64,000 bases of DNA. It comes from Salinimonas lutimaris. GTDB lineage: Bacteria; Pseudomonadota; Gammaproteobacteria; Enterobacterales; Alteromonadaceae. The first letter of the stretch is position 1. Every line of letters starts with the position of its first letter. A program made the translations under genes and the position numbers. Below are positions 36,821 to 43,017 of this stretch, piece after piece. The stretch lies in the NCBI RefSeq assembly GCF_005222225.1, contig NZ_CP036536.1:3620001-3684000 (forward strand). Reading direction: 5' to 3'. The notes beneath the pieces are model-generated. The model worked only from the letters and a program-made list of their open reading frames with translations, ran no database searches and was not told the DNA's origin.

Positions 36821-40152
<3,332 letters not shown>

Positions 40153-40178
40153 ACACCTGATTTTCGGCAGGTAGATTA

Positions 40179-40202
40179 AAAAGGGCCCTCGGGCCCTTTT
40201 TT
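40179..40202 (+). terminator. Terminator of fadBA
   Basis: Stem AAAAGGGCCC / GGGCCCTTTT with a 2-base apparent loop, followed by TTTTTATTATTT. It lies 27 bases after the fadA stop codon. Confidence 0.88.
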
Positions 40203-40280
40203 ATTATTTCATCTGTCGTCCCTGCACTAACAGCCCCCTAAGTACCCGTCGTCACTGCGCAAGTAGGAATCTCCTATTTT

Positions 40281-40401
40281 CCGTCTTCCCTGCGAAAGCA
40301 GGGATCTCCTTAACAGTCTGACTAATGCAAAAAGCCACTGAAAAAGGTTAGTCATGCTCCAAGGAGATCCCGGATATCGCTGCGCGATTCCGGGACGACG
40401 G
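40281..40401. repeat. BIME-like element 1 (two REPs in inverted orientation)
   Basis: The left REP (40281-40310) is read on the minus strand, AGGAG then stem ATCCCTGC/GCAGGGA. The right REP (40361-40401) is read on the plus strand, AAGGAG then stem TCCCGGA-ATCGC/GCGAT-TCCGGGA with one bulge, ending GACGACGG. A loop of 50 bases lies between. Each REP has a GGAG tetranucleotide followed by an imperfect palindrome, the layout of REPs mobilised by RAYT transposases. Confidence 0.75.
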
Positions 40402-40436
40402 AGTATTGCTGCATGCCCTTGGAACGACGACGCTTT

Positions 40437-40558
40437 CCGTCATCCCCGTGTAAACGGGGATCTCCTCAACAGTCTGGCTACACCAAAACAACCACTGGGT
40501 ATGGGTAGTCATGTTCCAAGGAGATCCCGGATATCGCTGCGCGATTCCGGGACGACGG
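40437..40558. repeat. BIME-like element 2
   Basis: Left REP 40437-40466 (stem ATCCCCGT/ACGGGGAT, minus-strand GGAG), right REP 40518-40558 identical to that of element 1. It directly abuts unit 1 on its right. Confidence 0.78.
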
Positions 40559-40954
40559 TGGGTGTATAAGCCGCATCGCCAATCATTGATCCAGGTTTAA
40601 GTGAGCACGAATACATCTTTTCTTCAATCGACCATCAAGGCCTGATGCTCAGACCGTGCTGACTGACACAGAAAAGTGCTGCTCTTCATCCCCTTAAGCT
40701 CAAGTGAGATGAATGAACAGATAAGCAATATCAAATCTCATCACGGATGATGAGATAAGGACAACAGGGACAGGGATGTCCCTTTTGGCCTGGTTGGTAT
40801 TGCCTGTTCAGGCAACTCACTGTTTTGAGCGCCAGGGGAAGCGCGGGAGTCCAGAGGGGAATCGCCATTCCCCTCTGGTTGCTGCCGGTCAACACCGGCA
40901 AAAGGTGATACTTCTGGTAAATCAGAACCCCTTAACAAGGGCCGTCACGTTCCC
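40559..40954. repeat. Hairpin-rich 395-bp repeat, copy 1
   Basis: Contains seven consecutive perfect hairpins in its 3' half: TCTCATC/GATGAGA (40736-40755), GGGACA/TGTCCC (40767-40782), TTGCCT/AGGCAA (40800-40815), CCAGAGGGGAAT/ATTCCCCTCTGG (40851-40878), TGCCGGT/ACCGGCA (40883-40900), TTCTG/CAGAA (40912-40927) and CCCTT/AAGGG (40929-40941). Its first ~100 bases are the most diverged among the four copies; the rest is nearly identical. Confidence 0.8.
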
Positions 40955-40995
40955 AAGAAGATCCCGGATATCGCTGCGCGATTCCGGGACGACGG
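40955..40995. repeat. Single REP after unit 1
   Basis: Same palindrome as the other plus-strand REPs, with AAGAAG replacing AAGGAG at its head. The 35 bases that follow (40996-41030) nearly match the spacer at 40402-40436. Confidence 0.75.
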
Positions 40996-41030
40996 AGTAT
41001 TGCTGCATGCCCCCGGGACGACAACGCTTT

Positions 41031-41152
41031 CCGTCATCCCCGTGTAAACGGGGATCTCCTGAACAGTCTGGCTATACCAAAACAACCACTGAACAAGGTT
41101 AGTCATGTTCCAAGGAGGTCCCGGATATCGCTGCGCGATTCCGGGACGACGG
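41031..41152. repeat. BIME-like element 3
   Basis: Left REP 41031-41060 identical to that of element 2; right REP 41112-41152 with one change in the head (AAGGAGG). It abuts unit 2. Confidence 0.78.
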
Positions 41153-41547
41153 TGGACGTATAGCCAATCCCCCACTCATTGCTCCAGGTTTAAGTGCATC
41201 CGAATACATCATTTCTTCAATCAACCATCAAAACCTGATGCTTACACCGTGCTGACTGACACAGAAAAGTGCTGCTCTTCATCCCCTTTAGCTCAAGTGA
41301 GATGAATGAACAGATAAGCAATATCAAATCTCATCACGGATGATGAGATAAGGACAACAGGGACAGGGATGTCCCTTTTGGCCTGGTTGGTATTGCCTGT
41401 TCAGGCAACTCACTGTTTTGAGCGCCAGGGGAAGCGCGGGAGTCCAGAGGGGAATCGCCATTCCCCTCTGGTTGCTACCGGTCAACACCGGCAAAAGGTG
41501 ATACTTCTGGTAAATCAGAACCCCTTAACAAGGGCCGTCACGTTCCC
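41153..41547. repeat. Hairpin-rich 395-bp repeat, copy 2
   Basis: Nearly identical to copy 1 over its last ~290 bases and to copy 3 throughout. One hairpin arm carries a change (TACCGGT for TGCCGGT) without compensation on the other arm. Confidence 0.8.
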
Positions 41548-41588
41548 AAGAAGATCCCGGATATCGCTGCGCGATTCCGGGACGACGG
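41548..41588. repeat. Single REP after unit 2
   Basis: Same plus-strand palindrome with AAGAAG head, as after unit 1. This shared change suggests the unit plus its right-hand REP were copied together. Confidence 0.75.
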
Positions 41589-41640
41589 TAGGTCGTGTAA
41601 GCCAATACCGCCCTCCTGCACTAGCAGAAATCTCAAAATA

Positions 41641-41764
41641 CCGGTCATCCCTGCGAAAGCAGGGATCTCGTCAACAGGCAGGCTGAGGCAAAACAACTAC
41701 TGAACAAGGTTAGCCATGTTCCTAAGGAGATCCCGGATATCGCTGCGCGATTCCGGGACGACGG
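41641..41764. repeat. BIME-like element 4
   Basis: Left REP 41641-41670 (stem ATCCCTGC/GCAGGGAT like element 1), right REP 41724-41764. The loop between carries a diverged version of the other BIME loops. Confidence 0.78.
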
Positions 41765-42159
41765 TGGACGTATAGCCAATCCCCCACTCATTGCTCCAGG
41801 TTTAAGTGAATCCGAATACATTATTTCTTCAATCAACCATCAAAACCTGATGCTTACACCGTGCTGACTAACAAAGAAAAGTGCCGCTCTTCATCCCCTT
41901 TAGCTCAAGTGAGATGAATGAACAGATAAGCAATATCAAATCTCATCACGGATGATGAGATAAGGACAACAGGGACAGGGATGTCCCTTTTGGCCTGGTT
42001 GGTATTGCCTGTTCAGGCAACTCACTGTTTTGAGCGCCAGGGGAAGCGCGGGAGCCCAGAGGGGAATCGCCATTCCCCTCTGGTTGCTGCCGGTCAACAC
42101 CAGCAAAAGGTGATACTTCTGGTAAATCAGAACCCCTTAACAAGGGCCGTCACGTTCCC
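41765..42159. repeat. Hairpin-rich 395-bp repeat, copy 3
   Basis: Nearly identical to copy 2. Hairpin arm ACCAGCA replaces ACCGGCA, again without a compensating change. Confidence 0.8.
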
Positions 42160-42200
42160 AAGGAGATCCCGGATATCGCTACGCGATTCCGGGACGACGG
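42160..42200. repeat. Single REP between units 3 and 4
   Basis: Plus-strand REP with AAGGAG head and one loop change (GCTACGCG). Here no BIME separates the two long units, so their spacing is 436 bases. Confidence 0.75.
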
Positions 42201-42595
42201 TGGACGTATAGCTAATCCCCCACTCATTGCTCCAGGTTTAAGTGAATCCGAATACATCATTTCTTCAATCAACCATCAAGGCCTGATGCTTACACCGTGT
42301 TAACTAACAATGAAAAGTACCGCTTTTTATCCCCTTAAGCTCAAGTGAGTTGAATGAACAGATAAGCAATACCAAATCTCATCACGGATGATGAGATAAG
42401 GACAACAGGGACAGGGATGTCCCTTTTGGCCTGATTGGTATTGCCTGTTCAGGCAACTCGCTGTTTTGAGCGCCAGGGGAAGCGCGGGAGTCCAGAGGGG
42501 AATCGCCATTCCCCTCTGGTTGCTGCCGGTCAACACCGGCAAAAGGTGGTACTTCTGGTAAATCTGACCCCCTTTAACAAGGGCCGTCATTATCC
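42201..42595. repeat. Hairpin-rich 395-bp repeat, copy 4
   Basis: All main hairpins are retained. A few scattered changes distinguish it (GATTGG, CTCGCTG, GGTGGTAC). It is followed by an eroded REP beginning AAGGAGTTCTCAGGG at about 42596. Confidence 0.8.
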
Positions 42596-42738
42596 TAAGG
42601 AGTTCTCAGGGTTGCACTGCGTGCCCCAACGTCAACGGCAACAGAAAAGATAAGCAGCTATAGACGCACAAAGCAGATTTGCTGGCTATTTTACCACCAC
42701 CCTGCTACTTTGGGCCTTAATAAAAGTGGAGCAGTGAC

Positions 42739-43017
42739 ATGAAAATACTGACAGGGATAGTGATGCTTGTGGCAGGTTTGCAGGGCTGTACTATTGTCGG
42801 CTCAGTACTTGACAGCAAGCTTGGTATTGAGCGTAGTCGGGCGCAATCTGCCACTTTATCAGATGCGGGTGGCTACCTCGACTCTGCGTTGTTCAAAGAG
42901 CTGCAGGAGGAGTCATCCGGCGGATGCTCAACACTAAGTGGAACCGAGCAAACAGCGTGTTATCAGCAAGCCAGTACGCTAAGCGACAAAATAAAAAAGC
43001 ACCGGCAGCAGCGCTGA
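42739..43017 (+). CDS. Small lipoprotein of unknown function
   Basis: A 92-residue protein with a lipoprotein signal peptide and lipobox LQGC (Cys17). The mature part is polar, with two more Cys near residues 64 and 75 (GGCSTLSGTEQTACYQQ) that could form a disulfide, and a basic C-terminus (KIKKHRQQR). GGAG lies seven bases before the ATG. No family recognised. It is the first gene after the repeat array and may be co-transcribed with the next lipoprotein gene. Confidence 0.7.
   Translation: MKILTGIVMLVAGLQGCTIVGSVLDSKLGIERSRAQSATLSDAGGYLDSALFKELQEESSGGCSTLSGTEQTACYQQASTLSDKIKKHRQQR

Follow-up and report, generated by a model that had tools for sequence, protein, structure and literature searches.

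The array of repeats lying behind fadA in the genome of Salinimonas lutimaris was analysed. The genome is a single contig of 4,123,530 bp (C1), and the window, that is the whole 64-kb stretch (64,000 nucleotides) under study, corresponds to its positions 3620001-3684000. Direct reading and repeat finding revealed in 40281-42600 of the window seven plus-strand and four minus-strand repetitive extragenic palindromes (REPs) together with four units of 395-396 bp, the same numbers as in the original prediction, which had been made from the sequence of this DNA alone. Each unit was found to carry TwoAYGGAY, a known RNA family (RF01731), and behind it a second structured domain. The features are listed below; all positions are those of the window, and the plus-strand REPs were located by repeat finding and core-pattern search.

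38989-40152: fadA, upstream of the terminator-like hairpin and the array
40178-40201, plus strand: intrinsic-terminator-like hairpin between fadA and the array (terminator scan)
40281-40309, minus strand: short REP with eroded stem start (direct reading)
40361-40401, plus strand: REP (41 nt)
40437-40465, minus strand: short REP with CGTC tag and AT stem start (pattern search)
40518-40558, plus strand: REP (41 nt)
40559-40954, plus strand: unit 1, 396 bp; RNA core about 40671-40911, TwoAYGGAY domain 40687-40835, 3' domain 40819-40906
40955-40995, plus strand: REP with AGAAG variant at its 5' end
41031-41059, minus strand: short REP with CGTC tag and AT stem start (pattern search)
41112-41152, plus strand: REP, GGTCCC variant
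41153-41547, plus strand: unit 2, 395 bp; RNA core about 41264-41504, TwoAYGGAY domain 41289-41421, 3' domain 41412-41499
41548-41588, plus strand: REP with AGAAG variant at its 5' end
41641-41669, minus strand: short REP with eroded tag (direct reading)
41724-41764, plus strand: REP (41 nt)
41765-42159, plus strand: unit 3, 395 bp; RNA core about 41876-42116, TwoAYGGAY domain 41901-42033, 3' domain 42024-42111
42160-42200, plus strand: REP (41 nt)
42201-42595, plus strand: unit 4, 395 bp; RNA core about 42312-42552, TwoAYGGAY domain 42328-42476, 3' domain 42460-42547
42376-42397 (unit 4), also 40735-40756, 41328-41349 and 41940-41961, plus strand: hairpin H1, hexaloop ACGGAT
42411-42420 (unit 4), also starting at 40770, 41363 and 41975, plus strand: hairpin H2 core ACAGGGATGT, full match to ACARGGAUGU
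42492-42519 (unit 4), also 40851-40878, 41444-41471 and 42056-42083, plus strand: hairpin P5
about 42596-42640, plus strand: eroded REP remnant closing the array (by eye)

Intact REPs stand on both sides of three of the four units, a REP on either side having been claimed for all of them; on the 3' side of unit 4 only the eroded remnant is found. By repeat finding, the spacing of copies in the array alternates between 157 or 176 (a pair resembling a bacterial interspersed mosaic element, BIME) and 436-437 (REP plus unit), and the longer spacing of 593-612 equals REP plus unit plus BIME. Copy spacings with shared REP endpoints are what unequal recombination between REPs would leave, thereby supporting the earlier idea that the units were amplified in place, and REPs set the block boundaries in this genome. 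Among 80 named loci, a set from which the nearest records were possibly left out, the FadA of the window came closest to the Salinimonas profundi protein (92% identity).

The identity of the units was established with cmscan. The RF01731 model matched all four units over its whole length with 49.4-52.4 bits, the curated gathering cut-off being 43. The statement that no described element has this design was thus wrong for the unit, which holds a known RNA family. TwoAYGGAY has been on record since 2010 as a candidate RNA of no known function, with human gut, gamma-Proteobacteria and Clostridiales as its sources (PMC2864571). A few extra covarying pairs lengthening an RF01731 helix have already been reported (PMC7657543, PMC11701678). 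The units differ from the described family in the added second domain with its pseudoknot, in the REP-spaced tandem arrangement of the copies and in one loop: when AYGGAY, taken from the family name and model consensus, is used as the criterion, the H1 loop ACGGAT fits in 4/4 units, whereas the H2 loop is AGGGAT (ANGGAY) in 4/4. No description of REP-TwoAYGGAY arrays or of the 3' domain was recognised in the literature searched, within the terms used. Two other candidate identities were rejected. A prophage or plasmid fragment was dismissed on finding no blastn match in phage or plasmid collections; and open reading frames (ORFs) of 105 and 108 aa span unit plus REP, a protein-coding reading which the base-pair covariation fits less well than RNA.

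Twelve RF01731 matches, 11 of them above the cut-off, were found in the genome at five places: 1379-1380k (three), 1697k (one), 3323-3324k (two), 3517-3518k (two) and the present array (four). Partial copies at 3517224 and 1697172 were added by blastn of unit 4. Blastn also revealed that the part common to all places is about 238 bp, corresponding to 42314-42551 in unit 4, and that the flank on the 5' side (about 113 bp) together with the REPs is common only to the 3517k and 3661k arrays, with about 90% identity. This shared flank indicates that a block of REP, flank, core and REP was copied between loci 144 kb apart. REPs are present at all five places. One copy in this genome (L045, about 2677-2912) is internally deleted, having kept P5 and P6 and lost the arm with its two GGA hairpins.

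The fold of unit 4 had an energy of -133.2 kcal/mol (z -11.7). Its architecture starts with a long arm that branches into the hairpins H1 and H2, and two more hairpins, P5 and P6, follow. It is the arm that the RF01731 matches span, and the second conserved domain (P5, P6 and a pseudoknot from the P5 loop) lies behind it; each unit encodes one two-domain RNA copy of about 240 nt, of which RF01731 is a part only. For an alignment of 18 full-length copies, to which this genome contributed 11 and three relatives of the genus 7, RNAalifold predicted 74 pairs, 25 of them with at least one double change. For the 3' domain, 20 aligned sequences gave 93.6% of cells paired, double changes in 13 of 22 pairs and a covariation score of 0.364 against 0.193 in shuffles (0/500). 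The pseudoknot helix in the same alignment was 89.2% paired and showed double changes in 4 of its 6 pairs; three class-2 rows (those of a second subfamily) are shifted by one column in it and weigh against it.

Behind the arm in other genera, GRGUCCARAG, P5 and P6 recur. In many elements the P5 loop can pair with the strand that immediately precedes GRGUCCARAG, and the pairing letters change between elements (CGCCG/CGGCG, CGCUGG/CCAGCG, CUCCG/CGGAG, AGCGACGG/UCGUCGCU, GAGCGUU/AACGCUC and CAGGGCGC/GCGCCCUG). In a swap test of 62 distinct sense elements the matched loops had a mean of 14.3 compared to 12.2 for swapped loops (0/500 permutations), where relatedness is ignored and some elements show merely 3 pairs.

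The distribution was analysed with RF01731 and with R1, a model of the 3' domain alone, built without the pseudoknot or a GGA hairpin. RF01731 was found in 81/295 genomes of the family. R1 recovered the four window units and the remaining copies of this genome, and at E up to 0.01 it matched neither the transposase region L049 nor any of five arrays made of REPs only (L048, L050-L053). Of 28 RF01731 loci from other genera, 23 have the R1 domain behind the arm; 12 of the 28 loci had contributed model rows, and three matches are weak. Across the order, R1 matched in 32/394 genomes, two other families included. The element adjoins der in four genomes of the genus, namely this one, G268, G303 and G314; on its other side xseA is found in two of them, the place being masked in G268 and a contig end in G314. 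This der-adjacent copy is an old position and looks like long retention. The fadA position gave a different picture among relatives: none of the 35 fadA loci (out of 80) searched with R1 had a match (among the 35, the sequence of L105 stops 63 bp past fadA and that of L084, L085, L099 and L109 within 1.9 kb), blastn at E up to 1e-3 found no unit or REP in the 80 loci, and no TwoAYGGAY was found in the 9 of 80 scanned with Rfam.

The element stretches of seven relatives of the genus were searched for REPs. REP-like palindromes occurred in three (G232, G310, G328), and the relaxed pattern gave no REP in those of G149, G268, G303 and G314, where L206 is partly masked and L207 (G268) lay outside the scan. 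In G149, of the same genus, tandem copies of the 3'-domain RNA were observed at L290, as well as at L291 and L292, with no REP match nearby. Since tandem copies exist there without a REP match, REPs do not seem to be needed for arrays, and they are probably a second, lineage-specific repeat that occupies the same places as the RNA element. Whether unit copies always end at REPs had been left for checking; in this genome each of the five places has REPs around the RNA, and in the arrays of the relative no REP was detected.

Several variants of the element were also observed. Two subfamilies, both having the GGA hairpins and a like 3' domain, stand head to head in opposite orientation in L218 (1480-3210, G143) and in L201-L204; in L218 they alternate within one array. 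In a subtype from other genera (RF01731 loci L249, L251, L261, L266) the two GGA hairpins cap a long near-perfect palindromic stem, with arms of about 25-50 bp and otherwise unrelated sequence by eye. A third subtype (L064, L079, L081, L250, L255, L259, L262, L263, L265, L267) has a differing 3' part, consisting of a GGAGCGCGGCC-like stretch and then a U-rich/A-rich hairpin around GGCUGUU, with further GGA-loop hairpins behind in several. Scattered 3'-domain matches lacking upstream GGA-loop hairpins, two of them in tandem, were seen in a genome of another family (L278-L281, G366). In L164 (1959-2037) the contig ends in a long poly-G within the element, probably an assembly artefact.

The loops of the arm were compared with the CsrA site. 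The ANGGA loop is present in 18/18 aligned copies for H1 and 17/18 for H2, the N position being free. ACAGGGAUGU is present in each of the four window H2 hairpins, and these are the only ACARGGAUGU matches on either strand of the window. RUACARGGAUGU is the CsrA consensus from systematic evolution of ligands by exponential enrichment (SELEX), and the ANGGAN hexaloop is the bound form (PMC7652899). Judged by their letters, the H1 and H2 loops fit the CsrA site rules, and the genome has one csrA match. CsrA binding by TwoAYGGAY has been proposed already from motif matching, as a Clostridia case (PMC4333381). In having GGA in hairpin loops that fit the CsrA site, the units resemble the CsrA-sequestering small RNAs, that is CsrB/CsrC, RsmX/Y/Z, Aln1a-c of Alteromonas (PMC5864184) and Pf1-3 of Pseudoalteromonas (PMC11882849). 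They differ in carrying two apical GGA hairpins per unit, in having no promoter of their own that was found and in having no RF00018 match: a search of the entire genome, the units included, with this CsrB family model gave 0 matches at E up to 1, and within the genus its matches in 21/59 genomes were all below the cut-off (0 above). The word TwoAYGGAY is absent from the available parts of PMC5864184 and PMC11882849.

GGA-loop hairpins were then counted upstream of R1 hits, in two sets of elements whose detection had not depended on these hairpins. For the second subfamily (28 R1 hits, chosen by orientation and by eye, RF01731 touching 1 of the 28) one or more such hairpins occurred in 23/28, compared to 8/28 on the other strand. 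Outside the family, 18 R1 hits had two GGA hairpins in 6 cases, one in 4 and none in 8, against 2, 3 and 13 on the other strand; this count was scripted with stems of >=5 pairs, and 4-pair stems by eye gave 8/18 with two. The six hits with two hairpins all belong to one genus (g57) of one family (f6), and the test was negative for G366 and G592. A count before 114 R1 hits gave 94/114 versus 10/114 on the other strand, a biased comparison as most loci had been fetched via RF01731 or unit DNA.

The REPs were characterised separately. The 36-nt REP core with <=3 mismatches had 63+45 matches (forward plus reverse) in the genome and the exact REP-type pattern including the short partner had 55+89, compared to 0+0 for the controls (a reversed one in the case of the core), which bears out the expectation of many dispersed REPs. 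About 28 clusters were counted by eye among the matches listed, and in the window the strict pattern gave 8 matches, every one inside the array. The 5' GGAG tag of the long REPs is variable (AGAAG in 2/7 plus-strand REPs) and the opposite end, which the minus strand reads as CCGTCGTCCC, is the same in 7/7; in this the array REPs fit the CGTC superfamily, to which they would belong by sequence. That superfamily has a CGTC tag beside a stem starting with AT, a stem of 8 or 9 bp and a loop of 4 or 5, and is said to have no dedicated transposase (Di Nocera 2013, PMC3733652). In the array the CGTC end is found in 7/7 long REPs, two of the four short REPs (40437 and 41031) read CCGTC-AT-CCCCG..CGGGG-AT-CTCC and thus have the AT stem start, the REPs stand in opposed pairs, and no transposase lies beside them (only the Y1_Tnp gene having been examined). 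As to stem and loop length, the short REPs come near the 8-9 bp and the 4-5 loop by eye, and the long REPs do not. The points of difference are that the long REPs start their stem with GT and are longer-stemmed than the reported 8-9 bp, and that the remaining two short REPs are eroded. The words 'Alteromonas' and 'Pseudoalteromonas' are absent from the text of PMC3733652.

The genome has one Y1_Tnp match. The protein keeps the Y of GRxYV and has TQVQ at the HUH position, where aligned relatives of the genus have NH[VT]H (13/14) or NYVH (1/14); 16 of 30 loci were supplied for this alignment, two of them IS200-like. The 14 kb around the gene contain five isolated GATCCC/GGGATC hexamers, no GGGAYGACGG and no complete REP. 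Against solved structures the protein gave merely weak matches to unrelated capsid proteins. The Y1_Tnp-like protein without HUH motif is retained as an open frame of 229 aa (L001 1180-1869, minus strand), and it is possibly domesticated.

A modular RNA that binds a CsrA dimer, stands in tandem copies and has REPs as recombination endpoints is the most likely reading, though it stands as evenly balanced between right and wrong. It draws on the RF01731 membership of the units, the covarying 3' domain, the near-invariant ANGGA loops, the multi-copy arrays and the der-adjacent copy; binding of CsrA by the two loops and dosage through copy number are what we infer from them. The arm of the 5' domain (TwoAYGGAY) would present the two ANGGA-loop hairpins, both to be held by one CsrA dimer, and the unit would be either a decoy for CsrA or a transcript tail that responds to it. 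Tandem copies would raise the number of CsrA sites, and unequal recombination between REP copies would duplicate or delete REP-unit blocks, giving this array. The balance is not set higher because of four points. Simple consensus scanning of 40100-42760 found no sigma-70-like promoter (0 versus 2.5 expected in shuffles), and no conserved promoter was seen upstream by eye, the part shared between loci beginning at the closing stem. The array sits behind the fadA terminator-like hairpin at 40178-40201; the same scan gave no plus-strand terminator-like site behind 40201, and of the 13 such sites in the region the minus strand has 12, 11 of which are formed by the array hairpins. The sites per unit are few, with 7 GGA of which 4 are ANGGA, compared to 22 GGA in E. 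coli CsrB. The 3' domain is more elaborate than a sponge needs. Further observations weigh on the same side: the H1 stem has 8-9 bp, and very stable stems may disfavour CsrA (PMC7652899); the R1 domain stood behind the arm in merely 6/20 RF01731 loci of 20 further genomes; 8 of the 18 R1 hits outside the family lack a GGA-loop hairpin; the pseudoknot in this genome is short (3-4 pairs); the element counts ignore relatedness; and one of five covariation measures was weak, the further pair types being 24 versus 21.0 and reached by 27/500 shuffles.

Tentatively, the unit may instead be a selfish or hitch-hiking structured repeat of intergenic regions, whose GGA loops and pseudoknot would serve its own maintenance, for example by transcript protection, and not CsrA control. 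The multi-copy and patchy occurrence within the family and the order is in accordance with this, as are the presence behind fadA here with no R1 match in 35 fadA loci of relatives, the head-to-head alternation of two subfamilies within one array and the G149 tandem arrays having no detectable REPs. Two observations argue the other way: four genomes of the genus have the der-adjacent copy, as if it had been retained for long, and the loops stay fixed while stems change. It is unlikely, in our estimate, that the unit is a cis-acting 3'-end element of upstream messages which, together with the hairpins of the REPs, keeps exonucleases out or makes decay depend on CsrA. By ORF positions the element lies downstream of the neighbouring gene on the sense strand at four of the five loci here, REPs are reported mainly downstream of coding regions (PMC3733652) and the pseudoknot is near the RNA 3' end; however, a terminator separates fadA from the array, and the closest ORF found upstream of the element at L047 runs on the opposite strand. 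Movement of the unit as cargo of the REPs by a REP-associated tyrosine transposase (RAYT), as in the original prediction, is very improbable. The REPs beside the RNA element at all five loci and the REP-flank-unit-REP block common to two loci 144 kb apart would suit such transport, and the array shares with RAYT/GTAG REPtrons and REPINs (REP doublets forming hairpins) the short palindromes in opposed pairs and in many copies. It differs from them in that no HUH-bearing Y1 transposase was found, and none flanked by the array's REPs. RAYT mobilisation was rejected as the main mechanism on the HUH-less sole Y1_Tnp and its surroundings free of complete REPs, on two genus genomes (G296 and G325, with 28 and 12 REP-like matches) that have no Y1_Tnp match, on the CGTC-like type of the REPs and on the arrays formed by the RNA element without detectable REPs in a relative. 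Of the earlier proposal, amplification in place by recombination at REPs is still supported.

To TwoAYGGAY the analysis adds the second domain, the pseudoknot, the subfamilies, the arrays and one conserved locus beside der, and these features make its proposed CsrA role directly testable. The search of this genome found no working RAYT, and yet recombination at REPs is recorded in the spacing of its REP array. A more speculative and rather doubtful extension is that TwoAYGGAY is half of a widespread bipartite pseudoknotted CsrA-binding module and that the order tunes CsrA by the number of tandem modules, through recombination between REPs or between modules. If it is true that CsrA is titrated by the arrays, the level of a global post-transcriptional regulator would be set in an unexpected manner, by the copy number of a repeat, and on the tuning reading a global regulator would be buffered by a copy-number-variable RNA repeat.

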